A DNA stretch of 64,000 bases from Sporomusa sphaeroides DSM 2875 (GTDB lineage Bacteria; Bacillota; Negativicutes; Sporomusales; Sporomusaceae). Location of the stretch: positions 2,696,501-2,760,500 of the forward strand of contig NZ_CP146991.1 of assembly GCF_001941975.2 (NCBI RefSeq). The letters are read 5' to 3'. Positions 3,165-16,100 of this stretch are shown in pieces (the first letter of the stretch is position 1; the number at the start of each line of letters is the position of its first letter). The notes beneath the pieces were generated by a model. That model saw only the letters and a list, made by a program, of their open reading frames with translations, searched no databases and was not told the origin of the DNA. A program made the translations under genes and the position numbers.

Positions 3165-5924
3165 TTAGAGAAGATCACCGTAGTGCCGGACATATGCCTT
3201 CTTTATGCTTGTGGCCAGCGCCATATACAATATGATGCAGGGAATCAAGTAAGCAAAGTATGCGGCCGGCAGCGGCAGAAATCCGAGCGTTGTTCCAAAC
3301 GAAGTAAACGGAATGACTGTTACGACTCCAACGCCAATTAAGGTGAGCATTGTAAGCGTGGCGGAAGCGCGGCTCTGGATGAACGGGAGCTTCGGTGTCC
3401 GGATCATGTGAATAACCAAGGTTTGGCTCCACATGGATTCAACAAACCATCCGGCTTGGAACAGCGCTACATAATTCGCTTGCATCTGTAGTAACTCTGC
3501 GCCGGTAAAGTAACTTGCCAGGTCGTTATATAGAATACCGTTGGACACAAACAGCGGGCAGAAAATAAAGCACATAAATGCATAAGTGGTCCAGTCAAAT
3601 ATGGAACTTGTGGGGCCAAGCCACAGCATGAAACTGCCAACAGAAGACGCATCCCACTTCCGGGGTTCCTTCAGAAACTCCTCGTCTACGTTGTCCCAGG
3701 GAATAGACGTGCAGGACAAATCGTAGATCAGGTTGAGAAAGATCAATTGCACGCTCATCATCGGCAGAAACGGAAGCAGGGCGGAGGCTGCCAGTACCGA
3801 AAACATATTGCCAAAGTTGGAGGACGCCGTCATCTTGATGTATTTATTCATATTGGCATAGGTCCTGCGGCCCTCAATGATGCCTTCCTCCAACACCATG
3901 AGATTCTTTTCCAAAAGGATAATGTCTGCGGATTCCTTCGCAATATCTACCGCAGTATCCACAGAAATGCCAACATCAGCGGACTTCATTGCGGCAGCGT
4001 CATTGATACCGTCACCTAGGAAGCCAACGGTGTGCCCGTTATTGCGAAGGACGGTCACGATACGAGCCTTCTGGTCCGGGGAAAGCTTTGCAAACACCTC
4101 GGTGTGCTCGGCTGCTTTTGCCAGCTCGTCATCATCCATTTTGTCAATATCGGAACCAAGCAGCAGGTTATTGACTCTCAAGCCAACCTGTTTGCAAATA
4201 AAGCGGGTTACCTTGTCATTATCTCCGGTCAGAATTTTGGTTCTAACACCATAGTCTTTAAGAGCTTTGATTGCCGCAGAAACGGAATCTTTCGGCGGAT
4301 CAAGGAAGGCTAGGTATCCGATCAACACCATGTCGTACTCATCTCTTACACCAAATGCCCGAATGGGAGAAGGATTATTTTTTTGGGCAACGGCAATGAC
4401 CCGCATCCCATCTTCATTAAAACCATCTACCGTTCGCAGGATTTTTTCTTTTAATGCGTCTGTAAGCGGCTCGACTTCACCCTGATATTCTACAAAGGAG
4501 CAGATCGAGAGCATTTCCTCCACGGCGCCTTTGGTGACCATCTGTGTTTTACCGCTTTTATCACTGACTACTATGGATAAACGGCGACGGGTAAAATCAA
4601 AGGGAATCTCATCAACTTTTGTATAAGCTTCAGACAAATCGATGAGCCTGGGATCGGAAGCCTCCTCCTCCTCTGTTTTGTGGATGATGGCCAAATCCAT
4701 CAGATTTTTGTAGCCTGTCTGAAAATAACTGTTCAGGTAGGCGTGGCGAAGTACACGGGTATCTTTATTGCCCATCACGTCCATGTGATACTCCAGTACC
4801 ACACGCTCCTGTGTCAATGTGCCGGTTTTGTCCGTGCAAAGAATATCAATGGCACCAAAATTCTGGATGGAATTCAGGTTCTTCACGATGGTCTTCTTTT
4901 GCGACATGGTTACAGCGCCTTTTGCCAGGCAAGTAGTGACAATCATCGGCAACATTTCAGGGGTCAGTCCTACTGCAATGGAAATACCAAACAGGAACGC
5001 TTCCAGCCAGTCACCTTTGGTAAGCCCGTTAATAACAAACACAATAGGCACCATAACGAACATAAACCGGATGAGTACCCAGGATACGGCATTTACCCCC
5101 TTGGTAAAGCTGGTTTCAACGGCTTCACTTGCAACTGAAGAAGCCATAGAGCCAAACAGGGTATCGTCACCCACAGAAATAATCACTGCGGTGGCGCTGC
5201 CGCTGATCACATTAGTCCCCATGAGCACAATATTGGCATACTTAGTAACGGTATCAACTTGATCCTCACAGACGGTATCCACTTTTTCCACAGGTTCGCT
5301 TTCGCCGGTCAGGGCTGATTGGCTGATGAACAAATCTTTTGCCTGGATAATTCTTGCATCCGCAGGAATCATATCACCGGCAGAAAGATGAATGATATCA
5401 CCAACCACCGCATCGACAAGGGGAAGCTCCTGCCTTTTACCGTCCTGGCGATCAACGGTGAAAGTCGTGGTAATCATGCCCAGGAGTTTTTCAGCAGCAT
5501 TGCCGGATCTTGACTCTTGGACAAAGCGTAAAGTCCCGGAAATAATAACCATAGTCATGATAATGACGACCGTGCGCAGGCTAACATCCTCCGATGCGTT
5601 TTGCATAATCGGCAGGGCAATATCCGTGATAGCAGATACAATAGCAAGACAAAATAGGATTGCCGTAAAGGGGTTGATGAACGCACCTGCCAACTTTTGC
5701 GACAGTGTTTTTTTCCTTCCGTGGGTCACCTTATTGTTGCCATAGGACATGCGGCTGGCAACGACCTCATTTTCCGAAAGACCGTCCAGAGAGGTATTGA
5801 ATTTCCGAAAAACATCTTTTAGCTTATTTGTTGCGGCGAAAACTATTGTTTCGTTGGTCCTATCCCTGCGAGCAAGACTATCTGCGATGTTTCCAACCGC
5901 CGCTCTGTTTGGATTCTTGTTCAT
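3165..5924 (-). CDS. mgtA: Magnesium-translocating P-type ATPase (copy 1)
   Basis: A 919-residue P-type ATPase of the MgtA/MgtB (P3B) group, which imports Mg2+ across the inner membrane at the cost of ATP. Visible in order: cytoplasmic N-tail, helices M1-M2 (about 80-135), actuator domain with TGES (about 206-209), M3-M4 with the GLTPEMLPM loop (about 319), phosphorylation site DKTGTLT (Asp about 365), the KGAVEE nucleotide site, [18 protein letters not shown] hinge, and C-terminal helices including the NLIYD...IPWDNVDEE segment typical of MgtA. All catalytic motifs are intact. AGGAGG stands 8 bases before the ATG. Transcription probably begins near 6335 and passes a 41-codon ORF and an attenuator-like hairpin before the gene. 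Confidence 0.95.
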
Positions 5925-5980
5925 GAGTCTATACCTCCTAATTTGATTACGTAGTTCCCTGGAACAGCCAAAAAGGGCAT

Positions 5981-6088
5981 AAAAAAACCATCGCTATTAT
6001 GCTTCTCCAGCGCATAACCCGTAAGTTGTTTTGCAAAGTTTCTTCGCATTACGGAAATGCAGCTTATAGAGGAATACATAAACGATGG
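5981..6088 (-). promoter_or_regulatory. Attenuator-like hairpin in the mgtA1 leader
   Basis: On the minus strand, CCATCG at 6088-6083 pairs with CGATGG at 5993-5988, extended by an imperfect helix (TTATG, TTC, CTC), and is followed at once by seven Us; this is terminator-shaped and ends 57 bases before the mgtA1 ATG. Inside, GCATT/AATGC and CCGTAA/TTACGG helices are mutually exclusive, so two folds are possible. It does not match the M-box (ykoK) consensus that I know. A conditional terminator sensing Mg2+, or coupled to translation of the upstream ORF, is the likely role. Confidence 0.5.
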
Positions 6089-6151
6089 ACAAATTTTTTA
6101 TGGATGAATGGCGATTTTTCTACTATTCCAATAGTCGAATCGCAGCTTCAG

Positions 6152-6277
6152 TTATAACGAACCTGTTATAACTTCCACACATATTAATTTGCCTGACCGT
6201 TTTGGTTTGTCCCCTACAACTGTAACTGTCCACGAACTCTCATCTCCTTCTATTTCTTGGGCAATATAGCGACTCAA
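6152..6277 (-). CDS. Possible 41-codon leader ORF upstream of mgtA1
   Basis: A frame starting with TTG (AGGA nine bases upstream) encodes a 41-residue, soluble, beta-rich looking peptide (motifs YIAQEIEGDESSW, TVTVVGDKP, KLICVEVITGSL). It lies between the probable promoter at about 6341 and the terminator-like hairpin at 5981-6088, the usual place of a regulatory leader gene such as mgtL. The peptide is longer and less biased than typical leader peptides and could be a genuine small protein. No family recognised. Confidence 0.35.
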   Translation of the reverse strand: MSRYIAQEIEGDESSWTVTVVGDKPKRSGKLICVEVITGSL

Positions 6278-6380
6278 AGGTGCTTTATCCTGTAACTACC
6301 TTCAGCTGGGATTCCCCCCACCTGAAACCAAGTTTGCTTTATCAGTATAAATAGAATCAGTACTAAATCCCATGGCTAAA

Positions 6381-6398
6381 CTCTTGCGATTCTCTTGC
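6381..6398 (-). promoter_or_regulatory. Direct-repeat box and promoter upstream of mgtA1
   Basis: On the minus strand GCAAGAGAATC-GCAAGAG is a tandem repeat at 11-base spacing, the arrangement bound by OmpR/PhoB-type winged-helix proteins. A TATACT -10-like box follows about 30 bases downstream (near 6345). The same box precedes the seven-gene operon (12477-12494), and a 10-base-spaced version precedes mgtA2 (15937-15954). Confidence 0.55.
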
Positions 6399-6458
6399 CA
6401 AATAGCAAGAAAAAACGGATTGATTCAGCTGTGCCACAGCAAAAGTCAATCCGTTTTC

Positions 6459-6524
6459 CTATTCTCTGGCAGTAAACTTATAACCAAATTCTCCAATAGT
6501 AAGGATGTATTCCGGCCCATCCGG
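6459..6524 (-). pseudogene. C-terminal fragment of an OmpR-type DNA-binding protein
   Basis: The minus strand encodes PDGPEYILTIGEFGYKF-TARE and a stop, matching the end of the regulator at 12567-13070 (PDAPEYILTIWGIGYKF-TERE). Nothing upstream belongs to the regulator; the stop of the SMR gene lies 17 bases away. It is the coding part of the left direct repeat. Confidence 0.8.
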
Positions 6525-6541
6525 TTGGGGTAAAAATTAAT

Positions 6542-6940
6542 CTACTCTCCGCTCTTTAGGTCATCCCCCGCAGCTCCCTGCCCTTTCGCCAAACAGACTA
6601 CACCCAGTAGGATTAAGACGCCGCCCAATACCTTATTGGTTGTCAATGGCTCGTTAAATAGCCAGACGGATAACAGCGTTACACTGGCTATTTCCAAATG
6701 CGAAGCGGCAAAAGCAGGGCCCACCGGCGCATATTTAAGCAAAGTCATCCAGGTTACGAAAGAGCCGAGATAACCGCCCAAGGCCAGATAAACCCAAACA
6801 GTCTCTAATACTCTAAGAAGCCAGACCGTGTCAAGCTCTACAGGCAGAGCTTGCTCGCCGGCATATTTCATACAGATTTGCGTCAGCGTATCAAAGCAAA
6901 GCAATACAAAAAAACCTATAAAGTAAAACCGTTTGCTCAT
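6542..6940 (-). CDS. Small multidrug-resistance-like/EamA membrane protein, subunit 2
   Basis: About 132 residues with four membrane helices, the size and layout of SMR proteins and of the ArnE/ArnF-type half-flippases. The ATG at 6940 overlaps the stop of the preceding SMR gene as ATGA, so the two are translationally coupled and probably form a heterodimer. An in-frame upstream start (7003) exists but would overlap the first subunit by 60 bases and adds a non-membrane tail. Helix 1 carries DTLTQICMKYAGEQ, and the last two helices VTLLSVWLFNEPLTTNKVLG and LGVVCLAKG, the pattern of EamA-type proteins. It closes the operon; the likely job is export or flipping of the pathway product. Confidence 0.75.
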   Translation of the reverse strand: MSKRFYFIGFFVLLCFDTLTQICMKYAGEQALPVELDTVWLLRVLETVWVYLALGGYLGSFVTWMTLLKYAPVGPAFAASHLEIASVTLLSVWLFNEPLTTNKVLGGVLILLGVVCLAKGQGAAGDDLKSGE

Positions 6941-7302
6941 TGTCCCCCCAGCCCCACAACGGCTACGCCCACCGAGATCAGTGTCATGCCGGCCAACCGC
7001 CACCCGGTAAGCTGTTCACTAAAAAATATCCGGCCAGCTACCATAATAACGACAATATTAATAGAAGCCAACATGACGCCCACCGACAGCGGGACAAGCG
7101 ATAAAAAAGCTACCCAGCAAACAAACTCGACAATGTAAAACAAGATACCTACCCAGAGCCAGGGCCCCTTAGCCATGTCTTTCCAATGGCTAAGGCCGCT
7201 GTGCTCAGCGCTTTTGACCGCCGCCGCCTTGAAGGACAATTGTCCGATCGTATCGCAGGTAATGTTGGCCAGCCAGACCAAAAGGGCCAATACGCTCATC
7301 AT
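6937..7302 (-). CDS. Small multidrug-resistance-like/EamA membrane protein, subunit 1
   Basis: A 121-residue four-helix membrane protein. The ATG at 7302 sits 8 bases after GGAGG and overlaps the stop of the hydrolase gene (ATGA); a TTG two codons earlier is less likely. Helix 1 contains NITCDTIGQLSFKAA, similar to the first helix of ArnE-like and SMR proteins, and the third helix pair GVMLASINIVVIMVAGRIFF with FSEQLTGWRL is typical of EamA half-domains. Pairing with a second, different SMR gene resembles EbrAB/YkkCD or ArnEF, which act as heterodimers in the inner membrane. Substrate unknown; the operon context suggests an amine-bearing metabolite. Confidence 0.75.
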   Translation of the reverse strand: MMSVLALLVWLANITCDTIGQLSFKAAAVKSAEHSGLSHWKDMAKGPWLWVGILFYIVEFVCWVAFLSLVPLSVGVMLASINIVVIMVAGRIFFSEQLTGWRLAGMTLISVGVAVVGLGGQ

Positions 7303-8255
7303 AGCCAATTCCTCCGTTTGCTGAGTCCCTGTAGCAACTCCTGGGGCGGGCGCTCCCGGTATTCAGCAGCTTCAAGCAAGGTTTGAAGCTGGCCGGGCTT
7401 GCGTTCATGCTGCGCCAATTTTTCTTTTTCCTGCCTGCTGAGTTGTTCGACAAAATAGCGGGCGGTTTCCATGCCAACCTGGCGTCTCTCCTGGTCAATG
7501 GTAATCATATGGTAGCTGTCCTCCAGCGCGATCAGACGACTGGGACCGCTGATATGCTCTTTGATATAGATTGCGTTACGGATGCTGGCAATATCATCAT
7601 CGCGGGCATGGACCAGCAGGGTGGGAATCTTAATTTGGGGAAGATTTACCTTAACCAGGTCCACTAACCGCCACAGCTCGCGCAGCGACCGGCCCGGCGT
7701 CCCGGCAAAACCGGCAGCCGCAGGGTCACCGCTTATCATTTGGGCGTGGACTCGCTCGCGCAGCCGCTTGTTTTTGATGCCATAAGGCCAGGCTTCTTCA
7801 AAACGGTAACGCTTACCAATGTAAGGGAGCCTTAGGACAAGCGGCAGTAAAAAGCTTAGTCTTGGTATGCTCCAGCCATCCCACCATAAGGTAGTAGAAT
7901 ACAGGCTCAAGGCACGAATACGTCCGGGAAAAGTCTGGGCCAGACGCAGGCTGAGCACAGCTCCGGCCGAGATGCCGCCGGCAAAAATGACGTCAGCGTG
8001 CTCAGAAAAAGCGAAGAATGCTTCCTCGACACTTTTTGACCAATCCGCCCAGGTTGTCTGTAAAAGCTCAGCTTCCGCGACACAATGTCCGGCCAGGAGC
8101 GGGCAAAAAACGGTAAAGCCATAGGCGTTTAAATCTTTAGCTATGCCTGACAACTCCGTGGGGGTGCCTGTCAGACCATGGACAAGAATAACGCCGACAG
8201 GCCCCCCCGGCCACAATAACCCCATTGTTTTTAGTTGGTCTATTGATATAGTCAT
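7299..8255 (-). CDS. Alpha/beta hydrolase (carboxylesterase/monoacylglycerol-lipase type)
   Basis: A 318-residue alpha/beta hydrolase of the Est30/monoglyceride lipase type. The oxyanion region is VHGLTGTP (about 25-32), the nucleophile elbow GGISAGA (Ser about 96), the acid lies in HARDDDIAS (about 219) and the histidine in DSYHMIT (about 248), so the triad is complete. The lid region (about 125-190) is rich in aromatic and basic residues. The C-terminal 50 residues are polar and may be an extension (usual length is about 250). The gene begins 22 bases after the aminotransferase stop. In this operon it may cleave an acyl or ester group from an intermediate or from the exported product. Confidence 0.85.
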   Translation of the reverse strand: MTISIDQLKTMGLLWPGGPVGVILVHGLTGTPTELSGIAKDLNAYGFTVFCPLLAGHCVAEAELLQTTWADWSKSVEEAFFAFSEHADVIFAGGISAGAVLSLRLAQTFPGRIRALSLYSTTLWWDGWSIPRLSFLLPLVLRLPYIGKRYRFEEAWPYGIKNKRLRERVHAQMISGDPAAAGFAGTPGRSLRELWRLVDLVKVNLPQIKIPTLLVHARDDDIASIRNAIYIKEHISGPSRLIALEDSYHMITIDQERRQVGMETARYFVEQLSRQEKEKLAQHERKPGQLQTLLEAAEYRERPPQELLQGLSKRRNWL

Positions 8256-8277
8256 TGAATAACTTCACCCGCACCAA

Positions 8278-9663
8278 TCATTTCTTCGTTACCCGGTGCA
8301 GTACTTGGTCGAGCAAACGGAAAGCCAGATCGATTTCATTCCGGGAAATGTCTAATGACGGTGCGAACGTGATGACGTTTTTATAATAGCCGCCAATGTC
8401 GAGAACGAGGCCATATTGACGGCCATCTACTTCCAGGTCGCCCTTCATGGCTTCATCAACAATGCGATCCATCATCGCCTTATCAGGGGTAAAGCCGTCT
8501 TCAGCGCAGATTTCGGCCCTAAGGGCCAGGCCTAAGCCATCGACATCGCCAATAATAGCATAACGGGACTTAAGCTCCCTGAGTCCCTCCAGGAAATAAC
8601 GGCCGCTATCGTTAACGCGGGTTTCATAATCAATTTCTTCCAGCATCCGCACGGTTTCCAAAGCAACAGCCGTACCCAAGGGGTTACTGGCAAACGTGGA
8701 ATGCGTAGAGCCACAAGGGAAAACATCCGGTGTGATCATTGCTTCTTTAGCCCACAGGCCGGACAGGGGATTTAAACCATTGGTCATCGCTTTGCCGAAC
8801 ACCAGGACATCCGGCGTGACGCCAAAGTTTTCCAGACCCCAGTATTTACCTGTCCGGTAAAAGCCCATCTGAATTTCATCGTCGACCATGAGAATATTAT
8901 GCTGGTCTAAAATACGCTTTAGCGCCGGGAAGTAGCCATCTGGCGGAATAACGTAGCCGCCTGTTCCCTGAATGCACTCTACATAAAAGGCCGCGTATTC
9001 GGCCTCGTGGGCTTTGGGGTCCCATAATCCGTAGTATTCGGTCTCAAAGAGCCTCTCAAGCTGTTGTATACAAAACATATCGCAGCTCTCGCGGCTCAGC
9101 TTATAAGGACAGCGGAAACAGTAAGGGAAAGGCACAAATAGCGCCCGCTCGCCGAAATGCCCGTACCGGCGTCGATAACGGTACGACGAGGTAATGCTTG
9201 TGGCTCCGAGCGTACGACCATGATAGCCCCCTTCAAAAGCAAGCATGAGACTTTTCCCATGGCAGAAGTTGCGGACTAACTTCAGCGAGTCTTCAACAGC
9301 CTGCGAACCGCCGACATTGAAATGGACCCGGCCTTTGACCCGGTGCTTGTTTTCCATATACCGGCACAGTGCCGTTGCCAGCTCTACTTTTTCGCGGTGC
9401 AAATATTGTGATGCCAATTGCGGCAATGTGTCGAGCTGTCTTTTCAAAGCATTGTTTAGGCGCTCATTGCCGTAGCCAAAATTGACTGCCGAATACCACA
9501 TTTGCAGATCGAGGTAAGGCCGGTCGCGGTCGTCGTATACAAAGGAACCCTGACTGTGGACGAAGAGCTTAGGCGGGTCGATGTAGTGGACGGTATCGCC
9601 GTAGGAGCAATATGCGGCCTCAGCGGCCAATAAACTATTCTGATTTTTGTTGTCGTTTTTCAT
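8278..9663 (-). CDS. Class III PLP-dependent aminotransferase
   Basis: A 461-residue fold-type I aminotransferase of class III (acetylornithine/GABA/putrescine transaminase group; typical 400-460). Seen: the phosphate-binding NVGGSQAVEDSLKLVR (about 115-130), GGYHGRTLGAT (about 145-155), the PLP-ring aspartate in MVDDEIQMGFYRTG (about 260-273) and the Schiff-base lysine in VFGKAMTNG (about 289-297). A cysteine-rich insert (CFRCPYKLSRESCDMFC, about 178-194) is not usual for the family core. AGGAGG in the end of the HAD gene serves the ATG. Class III enzymes move amino groups to omega-amines or aldehydes, so a terminal amine is the probable product. Substrate not predictable. Confidence 0.9.
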   Translation of the reverse strand: MKNDNKNQNSLLAAEAAYCSYGDTVHYIDPPKLFVHSQGSFVYDDRDRPYLDLQMWYSAVNFGYGNERLNNALKRQLDTLPQLASQYLHREKVELATALCRYMENKHRVKGRVHFNVGGSQAVEDSLKLVRNFCHGKSLMLAFEGGYHGRTLGATSITSSYRYRRRYGHFGERALFVPFPYCFRCPYKLSRESCDMFCIQQLERLFETEYYGLWDPKAHEAEYAAFYVECIQGTGGYVIPPDGYFPALKRILDQHNILMVDDEIQMGFYRTGKYWGLENFGVTPDVLVFGKAMTNGLNPLSGLWAKEAMITPDVFPCGSTHSTFASNPLGTAVALETVRMLEEIDYETRVNDSGRYFLEGLRELKSRYAIIGDVDGLGLALRAEICAEDGFTPDKAMMDRIVDEAMKGDLEVDGRQYGLVLDIGGYYKNVITFAPSLDISRNEIDLAFRLLDQVLHRVTKK

Positions 9664-9665
9664 TA

Positions 9666-10409
9666 TTAACCTCCTGATTGGGCAAGCTTAGTCTCTGACT
9701 CAGAGCTCAAGCGCCGTAGTATTTCGTTGTAGTGAAAAGACTGGCTGTGCTGCAGGCAGTCCAAAATGCGGATAATTTTATAAAAATCGTCGTAAGGCAA
9801 ATAGTTGAGGCTGTTCTCGCGGCAATAAGCTTCCAGCGACAAGCCCCTTTTCGCTAAAACTAAAGCGGCGCGGGAAGCAAGACAAAAATCTGAACGGCCA
9901 TCGCCGATTAAAATAACGGGACTTTGGCTGGCGGCGGCTGCACATTTACAGACGCCCGACCCGCAGTTTTCACGACTGTGCGGAAAAGCCAGTTCATACC
10001 CGGACTCTATGATCCGCAGCTGATTGGCTATTATCGGAATATCCTGTAGCCCGTGGCGGGCTAAGACATGGCGGATGACATAATCAAGTCCATCGCTGAC
10101 AACGGTCAGGTCTATTTTTTGCCTGCGGACAAAAGCGATAAATTCTTTGAAGCCTTTGGCCAGCGAAATTTTATCTAAAAAATTATGTAAGTCAGCCAGG
10201 TTGAGGTCGAGCATCCCAATTTGTTGGGCCATACATTCGCGGGCCGTTATGTGCCCGGCTACCCATTGCCGCTCTATCTCCTCCCATTCCGGCGAAGCGA
10301 AGCGGCTAAGCAGGGCATCGGTTGTATCCATAGACGTAATGGTATTGTCAAAGTCACAGATGATAGAGAATGATCCGGAATTTTTCCAGCTTAAAGAGAG
10401 GTTTCTCAT
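9666..10409 (-). CDS. HAD-superfamily (subfamily IB, MtnX/SerB-like) phosphatase
   Basis: A 247-residue HAD phosphatase. Motif I is CDFDNTITSMDTTD (about 18-31; the catalytic pair D-x-D is intact), motif II the Ser in TVVSDGLDYV (about 102-111), and motifs III/IV IGDGRSDFCLA (about 173-183). The cap between motifs I and II is the helical type of phosphoserine-phosphatase and MtnX-like enzymes. A CxxGVCKCAAA cluster near 150 could bind metal but is unusual. SD AAAGGA precedes ATG at 10409, and the stop leaves one base before the aminotransferase ATG. It should remove a phosphate from a pathway intermediate, plausibly before or after the transamination step. Confidence 0.85.
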   Translation of the reverse strand: MRNLSLSWKNSGSFSIICDFDNTITSMDTTDALLSRFASPEWEEIERQWVAGHITARECMAQQIGMLDLNLADLHNFLDKISLAKGFKEFIAFVRRQKIDLTVVSDGLDYVIRHVLARHGLQDIPIIANQLRIIESGYELAFPHSRENCGSGVCKCAAAASQSPVILIGDGRSDFCLASRAALVLAKRGLSLEAYCRENSLNYLPYDDFYKIIRILDCLQHSQSFHYNEILRRLSSESETKLAQSGG

Positions 10410-10449
10410 ATGTTTTTATCCTTTTCCTGTGGTTTGCGGTTTTTGCCTG

Positions 10450-11328
10450 TCAATACCCGGCTTGTTTTAGCAATTCCAGGATCTCCAGGTTAAAAAGGTG
10501 TTGCTGGCTCTGCCATGCCGGTAGTCGGGAAATATCCAATTCCACCTGTGTGTCCAGCCTTGTCAATAGTTTTTTAAAAATACCTTTATACTCATAGTGG
10601 GAGATTTCACCGGTGATATCAACACCGGTCAGTTTACCGGCGCAGGCTTGTATCAACTGCGCAAGATGGCGTTTTTCAAACACGCCCTGGTCCCAGTTCG
10701 TCCTGATCAGATCCTGACGGAAAACATCCTTATCAATGGATAAATATATCCTGCGGGCTGTGGCCAGACGGTCGGCAAAAGCGGCTAACAGTTCATCGGC
10801 GGTCTCCGACCGGCGGCAATATTGCCGCCGGCCGAGCCACCCCAGCCAAGGCGCGTCCGGCCCGATACTCCAATAAGTCAGGCGCCTGGCAAGAAAGGGG
10901 GTAAGATAATTCTCCCAGGCATGAGACCAAGTAATATCGGCGGAAGTGATGCCGATGACATGCACATGGCTTACCGCTGGCAGCCGGCAGGCCCAGTATA
11001 TCCAGGAACCGCAGTGAATGCCAAACGGGTAACGCATATTATCCGGGTGATTGTCACAAACCACTATTTCAAACGCTTCACCACTCGCGGATAGCCTTTT
11101 TAAGGGAATCAGCGAAAGATGATGGTAGTCGCCGCTTCCCAGAAACAAACAACCATGCTCTGGCGGCAGGGTCAGGTGCTTTTCCAACCGGCCCAGCTCT
11201 CTTAATGAGCAGCCGTACCGGACAGATTCCTGCCAGTCCTGAAGCGGCCGCCGGACCTCACTGTCGGCAACACGTCGTACAGAATTGTCAAGATCAAGTA
11301 CTAACGCTGGTAATGAGTTCCAACTCAT
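10450..11328 (-). CDS. Arginase/agmatinase-fold (ureohydrolase-like) metallohydrolase
   Basis: About 292 residues with the metal-binding skeleton of ureohydrolases: GSGDYHHLSL in place of the usual GGDHS, CDNHPDNMRYP in place of DAHxDxR, and YLSIDKDVFRQD in place of SxDxDxxDP, followed by a TGVDITGE strand where the family has a terminal acidic residue. The di-manganese ligands (H, D-H-D, D-D) are therefore kept while residues that contact guanidino groups differ, which suggests a changed substrate. The ATG at 11328 overlaps the upstream stop (ATGA); a start 28 codons earlier would lie inside the acyltransferase gene. Family members hydrolyse arginine, agmatine, formiminoglutamate or deacetylate-like substrates. 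Confidence 0.8.
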   Translation of the reverse strand: MSWNSLPALVLDLDNSVRRVADSEVRRPLQDWQESVRYGCSLRELGRLEKHLTLPPEHGCLFLGSGDYHHLSLIPLKRLSASGEAFEIVVCDNHPDNMRYPFGIHCGSWIYWACRLPAVSHVHVIGITSADITWSHAWENYLTPFLARRLTYWSIGPDAPWLGWLGRRQYCRRSETADELLAAFADRLATARRIYLSIDKDVFRQDLIRTNWDQGVFEKRHLAQLIQACAGKLTGVDITGEISHYEYKGIFKKLLTRLDTQVELDISRLPAWQSQQHLFNLEILELLKQAGY

Positions 11329-12386
11329 AAGGACGCCAATGCCTTGCGGTCGTTTTCGAACAGGTGGCGCAAGGGGTAGAGCAAACGCCTGAGCAGCGGG
11401 TTTTCTATCCATACAAGGTGGCGTGTGAACGTGAACTTAGCCCCTAAGGAAGCTTTGACCTCCGGGTCTGTCCATCCGGCAATGTAACACGTGCACCCCT
11501 GTTTTAGGGCCAGTTCAAGGTTATAAAGCCAGCTGATGAAATAGAGGTTAAGCTGGCGCGCCAGCGGATATTTGAAGCCAATATATTTGTCGATTAAGGC
11601 GCCGTTATGAACCAGACAAATGTTATAGCCCGCTAAAATGCCATTATGGCGATAGGTGATTACCAGGCCATTAAGCTTTTTATTGTTCAGTATAGCCTTA
11701 AAGAAATCACGGCTTAACAGGTCGAATTGAACATGGCTTTGCTGAAATACTTCGAGGTACATAGCATAAAATTCATCTAAAACAGTCTCGCGCACAAAAA
11801 CCGGATCACCAGTAGGCAGGATGTCGGTTGATAGCGAACCGGCAGCTTTTAGCTTGCGTCGTAAATCCTTCCGTCGCCCTGAGGAAAGACGGCTAAGGTA
11901 ATCGTCAAGGCTGGAAAAATCAATCGGCACATACGCCAGGGCTTGTCCCTCAAGCTCGAAAAAGCCGCGCCTTATACTTTCCTCCACCAAGCGCTGCGAG
12001 TATTCGTTTTCTGCCGCGCTTAACAAGGGCGAATCAACCGGCAGGTCTTTTAAGATAGTGAGCGTCTGCCTGCCTGTAAGCTGACTGGCTAGGGTGTCGA
12101 ACAGACGGTTAGGAGCAATACCTGACGGCAGCGGCGCGTATTCGGTAATGGTGGTGCCGATAAAGCAGGCAGACCAGTTCAGCCAATCGGACCAATAGCG
12201 AAACAACGGCAATTTCTCAACCTTAGCTCGAACATCGTTTTCTAATGTCGTCAGAAGACCAAATCTGGTTTTAAAATAAAACAGACTGTCAGCCGCATAA
12301 CCGGCTGTAAAACCACGAGGCGGATGATAAAGAAAAAGATCAGGGTAAAAGTCCGGTTCAACTAAGTTGAAATACGAATTATTCAT
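11325..12386 (-). CDS. FemAB/GNAT-fold acyl- or aminoacyltransferase
   Basis: About 353 residues. The middle has the pattern of the BioF2-like/FemAB GNAT domain (PF13480): IDFSSLDDYLSRLSSGRRKDLRRKLKAAG (about 165-192 in part), DEFYAMYLEVFQQSH, and a C-terminal GYNICLVHNGALIDKYIGF core with a final TDPEVKASLGAKF. These enzymes transfer acyl, amino acid or similar groups to an amine and act in the cytoplasm. The ATG at 12386 is not preceded by its own SD; AAGGAG instead serves a nine-codon frame (12379-12408) that overlaps the start, so translation may be coupled. First gene of the operon whose promoter lies in the right direct repeat. Confidence 0.8.
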   Translation of the reverse strand: MNNSYFNLVEPDFYPDLFLYHPPRGFTAGYAADSLFYFKTRFGLLTTLENDVRAKVEKLPLFRYWSDWLNWSACFIGTTITEYAPLPSGIAPNRLFDTLASQLTGRQTLTILKDLPVDSPLLSAAENEYSQRLVEESIRRGFFELEGQALAYVPIDFSSLDDYLSRLSSGRRKDLRRKLKAAGSLSTDILPTGDPVFVRETVLDEFYAMYLEVFQQSHVQFDLLSRDFFKAILNNKKLNGLVITYRHNGILAGYNICLVHNGALIDKYIGFKYPLARQLNLYFISWLYNLELALKQGCTCYIAGWTDPEVKASLGAKFTFTRHLVWIENPLLRRLLYPLRHLFENDRKALASL

Positions 12387-12408
12387 AAAAGGCAATCGTT
12401 ATACTCAT
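12379..12408 (-). CDS. Nine-codon minicistron (MSITIAFYE) overlapping the acyltransferase start
   Basis: AAGGAG and an 8-base spacer precede ATG at 12408; the frame encodes MSITIAFYE and stops at a TAA that overlaps the next gene's first codons. It may be a coupling device for the operon, or the true N-terminus of the acyltransferase displaced by a frameshift. Confidence 0.35.
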   Translation of the reverse strand: MSITIAFYE

Positions 12409-12476
12409 ACTTTTTCTCCTTGATCAACGATACTGTATCAGTATAAATAGAATCAATACTAAATCCTATGGCTAAA

Positions 12477-12494
12477 TTCTTGCGATTCTCTTGC
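12477..12494 (-). promoter_or_regulatory. Direct-repeat box upstream of the seven-gene operon
   Basis: GCAAGAGAATC-GCAAGAA on the minus strand is a tandem repeat with an 11-base period, followed 30-40 bases downstream by TATACT (near 12441) and by the operon's first SD. It is the proposed site of the OmpR-type regulator at 12567-13070. Confidence 0.55.
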
Positions 12495-12518
12495 AATTTT
12501 ATTGCCAAATAGCAAAAA

Positions 12519-12565
12519 AAAACGGATTGCTTTCAGCTGTTCCACAGTGAAAGTCAATCCGTTTT
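12519..12565 (-). terminator. Intrinsic terminator of mgtA2-regulator transcript
   Basis: AAAACGGATTG...CAATCCGTTTT with an inner TTTC/GAAA helix, followed on the minus strand by a run of nine Us. It begins one base after the regulator's stop codon. The same structure occurs in the left repeat at about 6411-6457. Confidence 0.85.
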
Positions 12566-12566
12566 C

Positions 12567-13070
12567 CTATTCGCGTTCAGTAAACTTATAACCGATTCCC
12601 CAAATGGTAAGGATGTATTCCGGCGCATCCGGGTTTGGCTCAATCTTTTTGCGGAGCTTGCGGATAAAGGCCATAATATTACTATCTGCCATGAGATAAT
12701 CTTCCGCCCAAACCGCCTGGTAAATTTGCTCCTTGGTGAAAACCTCCCCCTTGTTTTTCGCAAGAAAATAGAGAATGTCAAATTCCTTGGGTGTCAAACT
12801 GACCTCTATCCCGCTATGCAGCACTTTACGGCTCTTGGGGTGAATTTCCAGGGCCCCGGCATAAATGCCATCATCTACGACATTGACGAAATGTTCTCCC
12901 TGACCGGTCATTCCCAGCATGAGGGTAGCCACTTCACCCTCCATCAAATCCGCTAATCCCTGGAGCAGTTCATTGGCATACCTGGATTTGGGATGTAAAT
13001 CTTGCAGGGTATTATACAGGTATTTAGCAAGGGAGGAATCCATCAGGATAAAGCTTGCATTTTTCTTCAA
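12567..13070 (-). CDS. OmpR/PhoB-type winged-helix DNA-binding protein without receiver domain
   Basis: A 167-residue protein. The C-terminal ~95 residues are a Trans_reg_C winged helix (about 70-165: SLTPKEFDILYFLAKNKGEVFT, IYQAVWAEDYLMADSN, FIRKLRKKIE, YILTIWGIGYKF). The first ~70 residues are not a CheY-like receiver and carry no phospho-acceptor pattern, so this is not a standard response regulator and no kinase gene is adjacent. A TTG start is placed 7 bases after AGGAGG directly following the mgtA2 stop, making an mgtA2-regulator operon. Its probable targets are the GCAAGA tandem repeats at 6381, 12477 and 15937. What it senses is unknown; Mg2+ status is the obvious guess. Confidence 0.8.
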   Translation of the reverse strand: MKKNASFILMDSSLAKYLYNTLQDLHPKSRYANELLQGLADLMEGEVATLMLGMTGQGEHFVNVVDDGIYAGALEIHPKSRKVLHSGIEVSLTPKEFDILYFLAKNKGEVFTKEQIYQAVWAEDYLMADSNIMAFIRKLRKKIEPNPDAPEYILTIWGIGYKFTERE

Positions 13071-13085
13071 TGTGATTCCTCCTTT

Positions 13086-15749
13086 CTAAATGAGCTCACC
13101 ATATTTCGCAACGTAGCTTCGTTTCCATACGGTCGTTAACAACATATAACTGGCAACAACAACAAGCAGGAACCCAAAATACCATAGAGGGAGAACCGTT
13201 AAGCCCAGGATATTGACTATAGGGGTAAAGGTAAGCCCCGTGAATAGCAGGATGCCGATAATCGTAATCAGCATAACCGGGGTCGATGGTCTGCTTTGCA
13301 GGAAGGGTATTTTTTGCGTTCGCAGCATGTGGATAATCAACACCTGTGTCCACATGGATTCCAGAAACCATCCGGTCTGGAAGAGTGCAATATATTGAAA
13401 CTGCATGGCCGGATCGGTTAACTGTGTATAGAGCAGCCCGCCGGTAAGCGCAGGACAAAGGACAAAGTATAAAAACAGGAAGGTGATTCCATCAAAGATA
13501 GAGCTGATGGGACCAAAAAACCGCATAAAACGTCCCAGCGTTTTACCGGACCATTCCCTGGGAGAGGAAAATACCTCCTGATCAACATGATCCCAAGGCA
13601 GCACAATACAAAGGATATCATAAAGCAGGTTCAGAAGCAGAATTTGAATAGCCGCCATCGGTAAAAAGGGCAGGAAGGCGCTGGCGCAAACAATGGAAAG
13701 AATATTGCCAAAGTTGGAGCTTGCGGTTATTTTGATATATTTGGACATGTTCGCAAAGGTTTTTCGGCCCTCTAAAATACCTTCCTCAAGTACATTTAAA
13801 TCTTTCTGCAGCAAAATGACATCGGCTACGTCCTTTGCCGCATCAACGGCGGTATCTACGGAGATGCCTACGTCCGCTTCACAGATCGCAGGAATATCAT
13901 TCAAGCCATCACCGAGAAAGCCTACAGTATGTCCATTCTCCCGCAAGGCCGTTACAATACGTACTTTTTGGCTGGGGCTTAATTCGGCAAAAACACTCGT
14001 TTTTTCTACGGCGTACCGCAGTTCCAAATCGGATAAGCGGTTTACGTCTGCTCCGGTCAGCATATTTTCAGAGGCGATGCCAATTCTGCTGCAAATAGAG
14101 ATGGCAATTTGCTGATGATCACCTGTCAAGATTTTCGTTTCGACTTGCAGATTCTTGAGCTTGGCAATGGACTGAGCCGCCGATTTTTTCGGCGCATCAA
14201 AGAAGGCAAGATACCCCAGCAAAACCATGTTGGCTTCGTCTGTCAGAGATACTGTATTTTGATTGCCTAAGTCTTTTCTCGCTACAGCAATCACCTTCAT
14301 GCCATCTTCCAGCATTTCATCCACCACCGCGGCGACGCTGCTTCTTCCATCTTCTAAAATAGGGTGGACGGTTCCTTGATACTCAACAAACGTGCAGCGG
14401 GAAAAAACCGCCTCCACATCGCCCTTCATAATGAGCTGATGACTTCCGTTATCGTCGGCGATGAGTGTACTGACATATTTGCGGGTATAGTCAAAGGGGA
14501 TTTCATCCACTTTGGTGTATTGCTTGGCTAAAGTCTCATAGTATTCACTTTTTTGAGGCATATTGCGACATTCCAAAATTGCTTTATCGATGGGATTTTT
14601 CACACCCGAGTGGTATAAGCTGTTCAGATAGGCAAAACGAAGCACTTCCTTGCTTTCATTGCCAAGGATGTCCATATAATATTCCAATAATATGTTTACA
14701 TTGGTCAGCGTTCCCGTTTTGTCCATACATAGAATATCCATGCTTCCAAAAACCTGCATGGCATTGATATCTTTAATGATCGTTTGTTTTTTGAACATGG
14801 CAGTACTGCCCTTTGCTAGACAGGCCGTGATTACCATAGGAAGCATTTCCGGGGTCAGTCCGACCGCTACCGATAATGCGAAAAGAAAGGCTTCCGTCCA
14901 ATTGCCTTGTGTAATGCCCGAAATAATAAAGACGATGGGAACCAAAACAATCATAAACCGGAGCAAAACCCAAGCAATTGAGTTGGCGCCTTTTTCAAAG
15001 CTGTTGGAAGTAAGCGCATTTGGCTGAATAAAATTTCCGTACAGTGTTTCTTTGCCAACGGCTAATACGATACCTTCGCCTTTTCCGCTGATCACACCCG
15101 TTCCCATAAAGACAAGGTTTTCGTACTGTAAAAAGGCCATTTGCTCCATATAGTCATGCTTTCTGCTGGTTTTTTCCAGGATGCCGCTTTCACCCGTGAT
15201 GGCGGATTGCGAAACAAACAGATCCATGGTATTTATCAAGCGCATGTCCGCTGGTACGCGATCACCTGCGGCTAAATAGACACGATCACCCACCACCAGG
15301 TTTTCGGCAGGTATTTTGATAATGACCCCATCTCTTTTTACATTGATATGGGTATGTACCAGCCGATCTAATTGATCGTAGGCATGTTTAGACCGAATTT
15401 CCTGGATAAAACGAACCACACCGCTGATAAGAATAATCACGCTGATAATGATCACCGTTGTGGCATTCTTATTTAAACTGTTTGTATGCCATACATCTGT
15501 TATGAAGGATACAATGGCCAGCACGAACAAAATAATGGTGAACGGGTTAATAAAGGCCCGGCGAATTCGAAACCATATGGTGTCCGCTTTTCTGGCAAAA
15601 ATATTGTTATCCCCATATTTTTTCTTCATGGCCTCAACCTGTTCCAACCGAAGTCCGTTGCGTGTGATACCCAAATCGTTATATAGAGCGGCCGTATCAC
15701 TATGAGCATATTTTTTCATACGATCGTTTAAGAGGGATGCTTTATTCAA
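13086..15749 (-). CDS. mgtA: MgtA-type P-type ATPase (copy 2, diverged)
   Basis: An 887-residue P-type ATPase clearly paralogous to the 3165-5924 product. TGES (actuator), DKTGTLT (phosphorylation, preceded by CM rather than CT), TGD and GDGLND are intact, so it should hydrolyse ATP. Differences from the standard MgtA pattern include KGDVEAVFS in place of KGAVEE at the nucleotide site, GDGLNDIPAICEADVGIS in the hinge, and LPWDHVDQE in place of IPWDNVDEE in the transmembrane ion region. Transport of Mg2+ is likely but another divalent cation is possible. TTG start with AGGAGG 7 bases upstream. It shares an operon with the receiver-less regulator, and its leader contains the tandem GCAAGAAA box. 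Confidence 0.9.
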   Translation of the reverse strand: MNKASLLNDRMKKYAHSDTAALYNDLGITRNGLRLEQVEAMKKKYGDNNIFARKADTIWFRIRRAFINPFTIILFVLAIVSFITDVWHTNSLNKNATTVIIISVIILISGVVRFIQEIRSKHAYDQLDRLVHTHINVKRDGVIIKIPAENLVVGDRVYLAAGDRVPADMRLINTMDLFVSQSAITGESGILEKTSRKHDYMEQMAFLQYENLVFMGTGVISGKGEGIVLAVGKETLYGNFIQPNALTSNSFEKGANSIAWVLLRFMIVLVPIVFIISGITQGNWTEAFLFALSVAVGLTPEMLPMVITACLAKGSTAMFKKQTIIKDINAMQVFGSMDILCMDKTGTLTNVNILLEYYMDILGNESKEVLRFAYLNSLYHSGVKNPIDKAILECRNMPQKSEYYETLAKQYTKVDEIPFDYTRKYVSTLIADDNGSHQLIMKGDVEAVFSRCTFVEYQGTVHPILEDGRSSVAAVVDEMLEDGMKVIAVARKDLGNQNTVSLTDEANMVLLGYLAFFDAPKKSAAQSIAKLKNLQVETKILTGDHQQIAISICSRIGIASENMLTGADVNRLSDLELRYAVEKTSVFAELSPSQKVRIVTALRENGHTVGFLGDGLNDIPAICEADVGISVDTAVDAAKDVADVILLQKDLNVLEEGILEGRKTFANMSKYIKITASSNFGNILSIVCASAFLPFLPMAAIQILLLNLLYDILCIVLPWDHVDQEVFSSPREWSGKTLGRFMRFFGPISSIFDGITFLFLYFVLCPALTGGLLYTQLTDPAMQFQYIALFQTGWFLESMWTQVLIIHMLRTQKIPFLQSRPSTPVMLITIIGILLFTGLTFTPIVNILGLTVLPLWYFGFLLVVVASYMLLTTVWKRSYVAKYGELI

Positions 15750-15936
15750 AGTGATACCTCCTTCCCACTTTCATTTCATTGTTTTTTAGTATACCATTAC
15801 TTTCAGAAATAGTTCATCTATGGGACGAATTGTTTTAAACCTGGCGAGAGATACAGGTGGTGTTATATGCTATTAAGAAAGCCATGTTTCCAAATTAATC
15901 AATGTATTTTTATTTTAACATACTGTCTTGAGAAAA

Positions 15937-15954
15937 TTTCTTGCATTTTCTTGC
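15937..15954 (-). promoter_or_regulatory. Tandem GCAAGAAA box upstream of mgtA2
   Basis: On the minus strand GCAAGAAAAT-GCAAGAAA repeats with a 10-base period. A TAAAAT -10-like box lies ~25 bases downstream (near 15911). Nearly the same half-site occurs in the boxes at 6381 and 12477. About 160 bases of leader follow before the mgtA2 start; I see no clear riboswitch in it. Confidence 0.5.
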
Positions 15955-15990
15955 GATTTAAAACAACAAAAAACACCAGGCACAAACCGG

Positions 15991-16100
15991 CCTGATGTTT
16001 TCTTCCTTTGTCTGTGAGAACCTACACCATATTTCCCCTACAGCCACTAAACCCAGTAACTACCTGACTTCACGGGCTGTGTTTTCTTTTCTATCGCTTC
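15991..16100 (+). repeat. Dispersed terminator-like element, copy 2
   Basis: Preceded by an extra hairpin (CACCAGGC/GCCTGATG). The GTTTTC arm pairs with GAGAAC, a change from copies 1 and 3 that keeps pairing, around the conserved loop TTCCTTTGTCTG. The second stem is weaker here (CAGCC/GGCTG with inner CCAG/CTG) and is followed by TGTTTTCTTTTC. Lies between mgtA2 and the membrane-protein cluster. Confidence 0.55.

Follow-up and report, generated by a model that had tools for sequence, protein, structure and literature searches.

A seven-gene operon inserted between two mgtA genes of Sporomusa sphaeroides: a possible module for a cationic envelope lipid under joint control with Mg2+ import

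Two described systems come closest to the locus considered here. One is MprF/LpiA, the aminoacyl-phosphatidylglycerol synthase-flippase, which joins synthase and flippase in one protein and whose lpiA gene forms an operon with acvB (PMC13197417). The other is the modification of lipid A by Arn and EptA in enterobacteria, controlled by PhoPQ and PmrAB together with mgtA, in which a cationic change of the envelope goes with the control of Mg2+ import. The locus lies in a stretch of 64,000 nucleotides (nt) from Sporomusa sphaeroides DSM 2875 (contig NZ_CP146991.1, positions 2,696,501 to 2,760,500), hereafter the window, where a seven-gene operon runs on the minus strand from 12386 to 6542 between two genes for magnesium-transporting ATPases, mgtA1 and mgtA2. 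Judged from gene content, neighbours and structural models, the best reading is that this set would work like MprF but split over several proteins, building a cationic lipid of the envelope, flipping it and trimming it in response to divalent-cation or cationic-peptide stress. Speaking in its favour are the lipid-synthesis genes beside relatives of the set, a sensing context of the polymyxin type, a transferase resembling MprF and FemX, the flippase-like pair and an operator shared with Mg2+ import. We rate at even odds the proposal that the operon was acquired horizontally as a module for such a lipid and is controlled together with Mg2+ import. The genes concerned are the following.

3165..5924, minus strand: mgtA2, Mg2+ P-type ATPase of 919 amino acids (aa); TIGR01524 1104 bits (cut-off 610.75), NF011702 1162 bits (cut-off 975)
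6542..6940, minus strand: SMR2, EamA/SMR-type half-transporter of 132 aa; PF00892 34.5 bits (cut-off 28.2)
6937..7299, minus strand: SMR1, EamA/SMR-type half-transporter of 120 aa; family-model scan
7299..8255, minus strand: ABH, alpha/beta-hydrolase (Hydrolase_4, S33-like); PF12146 54.6 bits
8278..9663, minus strand: AT, class III (pyridoxal phosphate, PLP) aminotransferase, the core gene of the set; PF00202 238.9 bits
9666..10409, minus strand: HAD, MtnX-like HAD-IB phosphatase, partner of AT; TIGR01489 104.9 bits (cut-off 81.55)
10450..11328, minus strand: ARG, arginase-fold metallohydrolase with altered motifs; metal ligands, predicted structure
11325..12386, minus strand: FEM, FemAB/GNAT-type transferase of 353 aa; PF04339, PF13480, AlphaFold model
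12379..12408, minus strand: leader open reading frame (ORF) of nine codons (MSITIAFYE), which has the Shine-Dalgarno sequence AAGGAG and extends over the FEM start codon; direct sequence reading
12567..13070, minus strand: OmpR-type winged-helix (wHTH) protein of 167 aa, candidate regulator; PF00486 92.3 bits, residues 89-163 only
13086..15749, minus strand: mgtA1, Mg2+ P-type ATPase of 887 aa; TIGR01524 956 bits (cut-off 610.75)

The original prediction had described a tightly packed operon of these seven families between two mgtA genes, and ORF coordinates and family-model matches bear this out throughout, with both flanking ATPases (48.5% identical to each other) above the TIGR01524 equivalog cut-off. 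FEM overlaps ARG by 4 nt, ABH overlaps SMR1 by 1 nt and SMR1 overlaps SMR2 by 4 nt; the remaining gaps measure 40 nt (ARG-HAD), 2 nt (HAD-AT) and 22 nt (AT-ABH). The FEM start is best set at the ATG at 12386, the ATG at 12408 beginning the nine-codon ORF instead. Lying over the FEM start codon, this ORF might act as a leader peptide or as a translational coupler.

The tie between the operon and the mgtA genes proved larger than the shared promoter box that had been pointed out earlier. The box is real, and it belongs to a duplicated block of about 200 nt that holds the last ~25 codons of the regulator, a terminator and the promoter region (alignment score 279; shuffled sequences reach 36 at most), together with an operator-like repeat that is rare in the genome.

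6337..6534, minus strand: degraded copy of the block (regulator 3' end, terminator, operator, promoter), upstream of mgtA2; local alignment, repeats D1-D3
6382..6398, minus strand: operator-like direct repeat GCAAGAGAATCGCAAGA, upstream of mgtA2; genome pattern search
12433..12643, minus strand: right-hand block (regulator 3' end, terminator, operator, and promoter now reading into the operon), adjoining the regulator without a break, as it also does at the empty site described below
12478..12494, minus strand: operator-like direct repeat GCAAGAGAATCGCAAGA, upstream of the operon, with a third half-site (GCAATA) 11 nt upstream
15939..15954, minus strand: operator-like direct repeat GCAAGAAAATGCAAGA, upstream of mgtA1; genome pattern search

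The 5.0-Mb genome has four copies of the pattern GCAAGA-N4-5-GCAAGA and none of the reversed control pattern; three of the four lie in the window, where 0.03 would be expected. Three of the genome copies precede mgtA1, the operon and mgtA2, and the fourth lies inside a coding gene, so that the proposed wiring to mgtA takes the form of a rare operator shared with both ATPase genes. The copies upstream of the operon and of mgtA2 have an 11-nt period, and 11 nt is the usual half-site spacing for the OmpR family. The adjacent winged-helix protein, as candidate regulator, may be the one that binds the repeat; a search for this regulator within the genus returned generic OmpR-type proteins only. A -10-like TATACT common to the promoters was read by eye from the alignment, and a sigma-70 promoter scan gave 16 hits against 14.8 in shuffled sequences, which is no excess, and did not flag the shared promoter. 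At all three sites the repeat stands directly after a terminator-like hairpin with a T-run (15968-16003, 12505-12565 and 6405-6460), a layout that could also serve control at the RNA level.

How the operon came to this position is suggested by comparison with G042, a single-contig genome, 98% complete, from another genus of the same family, in which mgtA1, the regulator and mgtA2 form one block without the operon. Its mgtA1 protein is 88% identical to that of the window and has a regulator orthologue beside it; the block matches positions 12420-15764 of the window at 86% and continues at 5943-6258 at 84%, and both ~200-nt copies of the window map onto one single stretch of it. Because the G042 block is continuous and both copies map to one stretch, the operon is an insertion with target duplication, through which it has captured the mgtA2 promoter: it now stands behind the original promoter, with mgtA2 keeping a copy. 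Single-crossover integration of a DNA circle carrying the regulator end, the promoter and the operon is a route that would give exactly such a layout. In G042 the repeat between regulator and mgtA2 differs at a single position and is followed by the conserved TATACT, and no GCAAGA element was found upstream of its mgtA1. The same genome carries upstream of mgtA2 an ORF for a 103-aa membrane-protein-like product (L108:3611-3922) that is not in the window. Insertion and promoter capture had gone unseen in the original prediction, of whose account of the wiring the shared box stands. Horizontal transfer is further supported by the G+C content of the operon (0.506, against 0.458 for the window), by the place of AT in one clade (support 100/100) with Candidatus Adiutrix and other deltaproteobacterial metagenome-assembled genomes (MAGs), at up to 84% identity, and by the absence of AT from every examined relative of the same genus or family; in the close relatives of the genus, ARG-like genes were likewise absent.

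The neighbourhood check that had been proposed for the set shows that it recurs, which excludes the possibility that the aminotransferase, HAD and arginase-fold genes are never found elsewhere with the SMR pair. A genome-contig scan with AT as query gave 39 orthologue loci at 59-84% identity, all in MAGs, from Proteobacteria, deltaproteobacterial groups, Acidobacteria, Omnitrophota, Nitrospirae, Actinobacteria and others. HAD adjoins AT in 36 of the 39, and at least two of the remaining three loci end at a contig edge. In a first context of the HAD-AT pair, ABH is present in 20 of the 39 loci, SMR genes in 17, FEM in 15 and ARG in 11, with ARG at a separate place in some genomes; the full seven-gene set was found in Nitrospirota, Omnitrophota and deltaproteobacterial MAGs and on plasmids of Rhizobium, Agrobacterium and Xanthomonas. 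Nine of 198 Nitrospirota genomes have a match to the ARG profile, several of them short and partial. A second context, exclusive of the first, comprises 14 loci of Acidobacteria and Omnitrophota (L019-L027, L031, L033, L035, L042 and L044), where HAD-AT is followed by a PaaK-like AMP-binding ligase and never by ABH or FEM; the product of the pair thus seems to feed two different pathways. Several loci of the first context also hold a FabF-type ketosynthase, an acyl carrier protein (ACP), a DegT-type aminotransferase and a two-component system, and in the Nitrospirota loci the ketosynthase, ACP and DegT genes join the set. In Candidatus Adiutrix, a gene for a PMCA-type Ca2+ ATPase overlaps FEM by 4 nt (L047:13042-15762), a second, separate tie of the gene set to divalent-cation transport.

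Moreover, AT orthologues of 66-70% identity are carried by 34 plasmids of Rhizobium, Agrobacterium, Sinorhizobium, Phyllobacterium, Bartonella and Xanthomonas, of which 14 loci were read: 12 from Rhizobiaceae/Phyllobacterium, one from Xanthomonas sacchari and one from Bartonella HY406. The order HAD-AT-ARG-EamA-(desaturase)-ABH-GNAT-EamA-(cyclopropane fatty acid (CFA) synthase) is the same in all 12 Rhizobiaceae/Phyllobacterium loci, each with two-component genes beside the set; a fatty-acid desaturase (8/12) and a CFA synthase (6/12) lie within the set or at its end, and MipA/OmpV adjoins it in nine. The X. sacchari plasmid has all seven genes plus ketosynthase, ACP and DegT, and Bartonella HY406 has AT, GNAT and unnamed genes only. 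On the conjugative plasmid pAt2788a of Agrobacterium fabrum 2788, the set is followed by MipA and then, at L097:17321-18973, by EptA and DgkA (diacylglycerol kinase), the EptA protein scoring 590.8 bits, over the cut-off of NF028537 (phosphoethanolamine-lipid A transferase). The Sinorhizobium response regulator scores 209.5 bits with QseB and 201.8 with PmrA (cut-off 330), and its kinase 167.9 with QseC and 152.8 with PmrB (cut-off 314); nearest to QseBC with PmrAB close behind and all scores under cut-off, the pair is related to PmrAB without being a member. In Pseudomonas aeruginosa, MipA is a polymyxin co-sensor for a two-component system (PMC10936184). Genes of the TMEM165/GDT1 type, a divalent-cation transporter family, are found near the set on three Rhizobium plasmids (L099, L100 and L101), and Rhizobium acidisoli FH23 has two whole copies of the set on two plasmids (L093 and L100), with identical accessions for ARG and the first EamA protein.

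Altogether, the ketosynthase, ACP, desaturase, CFA synthase, MipA, PmrAB/QseBC-like regulators and EptA/DgkA among these neighbours speak for a lipid of the membrane, or for some other change to the envelope, more than for a diffusible chelator. They also bear on the view that the operon is a unit for catabolism or detoxification of amines or phospho-amines that came to lie behind the mgtA promoter and is functionally unconnected with Mg2+. Catabolic roles are common among class III aminotransferases and PHOSPHO1/MtnX-like phosphatases, and an insertion at mgtA could be due to chance; the tie to envelope-stress regulators nevertheless recurs independently in Rhizobiaceae, and in Adiutrix a Ca2+ ATPase gene is coupled to FEM, which leaves this view very improbable.

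As regards the transferase, the AlphaFold model of FEM (predicted local distance difference test, pLDDT, 89.4) has as its top structural matches the aminoacyl-tRNA-dependent enzymes Sba18/Sbb17 and FemX, with Z of 17-18, and matches MprF synthase-domain chains with Z of 16-17 over about 255 residues, the tandem-GNAT aminoacyltransferase fold being present. FEM has no membrane domain and hence no flippase domain in the same protein, the SMR pair being separate; in a single relative (L043), FEM is fused to an EamA domain. Elsewhere in the source genome there is one stand-alone LPG_synthase_C protein of ~300 aa that lacks a flippase domain, and there are sulfatase-family matches of unclear type. 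Sbb17 and Sba18 are tRNA-dependent synthases that act on streptothrisamine, an antibiotic precursor, and the match to them could also suit the original interpretation: under Mg2+ shortage a soluble compound, cationic or metal-binding, would be produced in the cytoplasm and the SMR pair would export it. An aminotransferase, a hydrolase and SMR exporters likewise suit small amines. We consider this interpretation improbable: the lipid-synthesis, PmrAB/QseBC-like and MipA/EptA neighbours and the one FEM-EamA fusion indicate the envelope, and genes for uptake or a receptor do not recur alongside the set. Amine chemistry, the half-transporter pair and the mgtA wiring are thus retained from that interpretation, and the small exported metal-binding metabolite has lost ground.

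ARG had been described as an arginase-fold metallohydrolase with altered motifs, which agrees with its model (pLDDT 92.4): the alpha/beta fold matches arginase, agmatinase and guanidinase structures with Z of about 19-20, and the ligand pattern of a binuclear site (H, D-x-H-x-D, D-x-D) is complete, with H69/H70, D92, H94, D96, D199 and D201 invariant in 13 divergent ARG sequences. The motifs GSGDYHH, DNHPD, SIDKD and TNWDQG are specific to the family. The window protein stays under the PF00491 gathering score (17.9 against 22), all 13 members match PF00491 at E up to 0.1 (best 1.1e-08), and phmmer with the single ARG sequence gave no match, whereas the ARG family profile does find agmatinases. 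ARG thus shares the fold and all metal ligands with the ureohydrolases but differs from them by an identity of only about 8-17%, by its altered motifs, including the family-specific TNWDQG, and by an invariant Lys between two ligand Asp residues.

AT matches PF00202 and reaches the cut-off of no listed NCBIfam equivalog. HAD belongs to the HAD-IB, DKMTPPase superfamily together with MtnX, the phosphatase of methionine salvage, and matches the superfamily model TIGR01489, but it scores well under the MtnX equivalog (TIGR03333, 101.6 against 303.2 bits) and has no methionine-salvage genes beside it. ABH has no evident signal peptide. XrtA/PEP-CTERM accessory clusters also have FemAB, hydrolases and ACP; identity with such a cluster was rejected, no NCBIfam model of that kind being among the matches listed. 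SMR1 and SMR2 are 23% identical, and the positive charges of SMR1 suggest that both of its ends lie outside, a topology hint for SMR1 only, SMR2 being handled poorly by the hydropathy script.

The best scores of both SMR halves are with the ArnE/ArnF models, which raises the question of whether the set adds an amine to an envelope polymer (lipopolysaccharide (LPS) core or lipid A, or a lipid-linked precursor), in the manner of Arn, instead of producing a membrane lipid in free form. In several loci the set is accompanied by DegT aminotransferases akin to PseC/ArnB, and the neighbours EptA and MipA act on or at the outer membrane. Yet SMR2 remains under the cut-offs (25.7 against 92 for NF011625, 37.1 against 99 for the ArnF model NF002816) with SMR1 lower still, the full set has neither a glycosyltransferase nor a nucleotide-sugar enzyme as a recurring partner, and ketosynthase, ACP, desaturase and CFA synthase better match an acyl product. 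A polymer as acceptor is accordingly judged unlikely, if a serious alternative to the cationic lipid.

For the cationic lipid, a plausible mechanism may be outlined. HAD and AT would turn a phosphorylated carbonyl precursor into an amine that serves as building block, and FEM, to go by its fold, could transfer an aminoacyl or acyl group onto a membrane-lipid acceptor, with aminoacyl-tRNA or acyl-ACP as donor. ARG, with the fold and intact ligands of a two-metal ureohydrolase, might hydrolyse a guanidino or amide group and so set the charge of the head group. SMR1 and SMR2 would form a heterodimeric flippase in the role of the MprF flippase domain, as the one natural FEM-EamA fusion hints, and ABH may remove or recycle the acyl or aminoacyl group. 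The winged-helix protein would bind the GCAAGA repeat, and the unit would be switched on when Mg2+ is short or displaced by cationic peptides. The cell could thus probably make the lipid when magnesium is short, via the promoter that also serves the mgtA genes.

Several observations weigh against this proposal. Product, substrate and expression of the operon are predictions from its genes, and those on which the case for a lipid draws in its relatives (ketosynthase, ACP, desaturase and CFA synthase) are missing from the window operon. The link between FEM and MprF is one of fold alone, because PF09924 (LPG_synthase_C) has zero matches in 15 FEM members and a FEM profile run against PDB sequences returned chance matches only, with no FemX or MprF sequence. 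Coenzyme A (CoA)-dependent tandem GNATs and N-myristoyltransferases also resemble FEM, at lower scores (Z about 13-14.5 for the former and about 12.5-13 for the latter). The fold that FEM has in common with the C-terminal domain of MprF is also present in FemX and does not by itself establish function. The winged-helix protein has no receiver domain to point to its signal. Moreover, the HAD-AT product may serve more than one pathway, since the second context has the PaaK-like ligase instead of ABH, FEM and SMR genes.

The original prediction had taken the pathway to be undescribed, and no assignment to a characterised pathway came to light in the open-access literature searched, where the gene combination is not described. 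We rate the set as unrecognised enzymes for cationic envelope remodelling, itself a known kind of process. More tentatively, and with rather more doubt than confidence, it may represent a widespread mobile pathway whose product would be a cationic membrane lipid of a new class and which would serve diderm bacteria as an alternative to MprF and Arn. In such a pathway HAD/AT would provide the amine, FEM would load it, ARG would adjust the charge and the SMR heterodimer would flip the product. Were this true, many environmental, plant-associated and gut bacteria would have an unrecognised envelope-charge system, mobile on conjugative Rhizobium/Agrobacterium plasmids and once beside a lipid A phosphoethanolamine transferase gene, and current catalogues would gain a class of lipid as well as an intrinsic cationic-peptide response that they lack. 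The locus would also exemplify how a pathway enters an Mg2+ regulon through promoter capture in one insertion.

Compared with the systems mentioned at the outset, the window shares with PhoPQ/PmrAB-controlled lipid A modification an ArnE/F-like SMR pair and, beside its relatives, PmrAB-like regulators and EptA; it differs in having no Arn enzymes, and a receiver-less winged-helix protein with the GCAAGA repeat as its control elements. MprF with its hydrolases comes closest in function (PMC13197417, PMC8131360, PMC13135905). FEM and the MprF synthase domain share a fold, flippase and alpha/beta-hydrolase components lie alongside, and the one relative fused to EamA unites transferase and transporter as MprF does. 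On the other hand, FEM has no PF09924 match, the SMR/EamA pair takes the place of the MprF membrane domain as flippase, ABH looks cytoplasmic whereas AcvB, of the AcvB/VirJ hydrolases of Agrobacterium, is periplasmic, and the set of the window has HAD, AT and ARG as extra enzymes.

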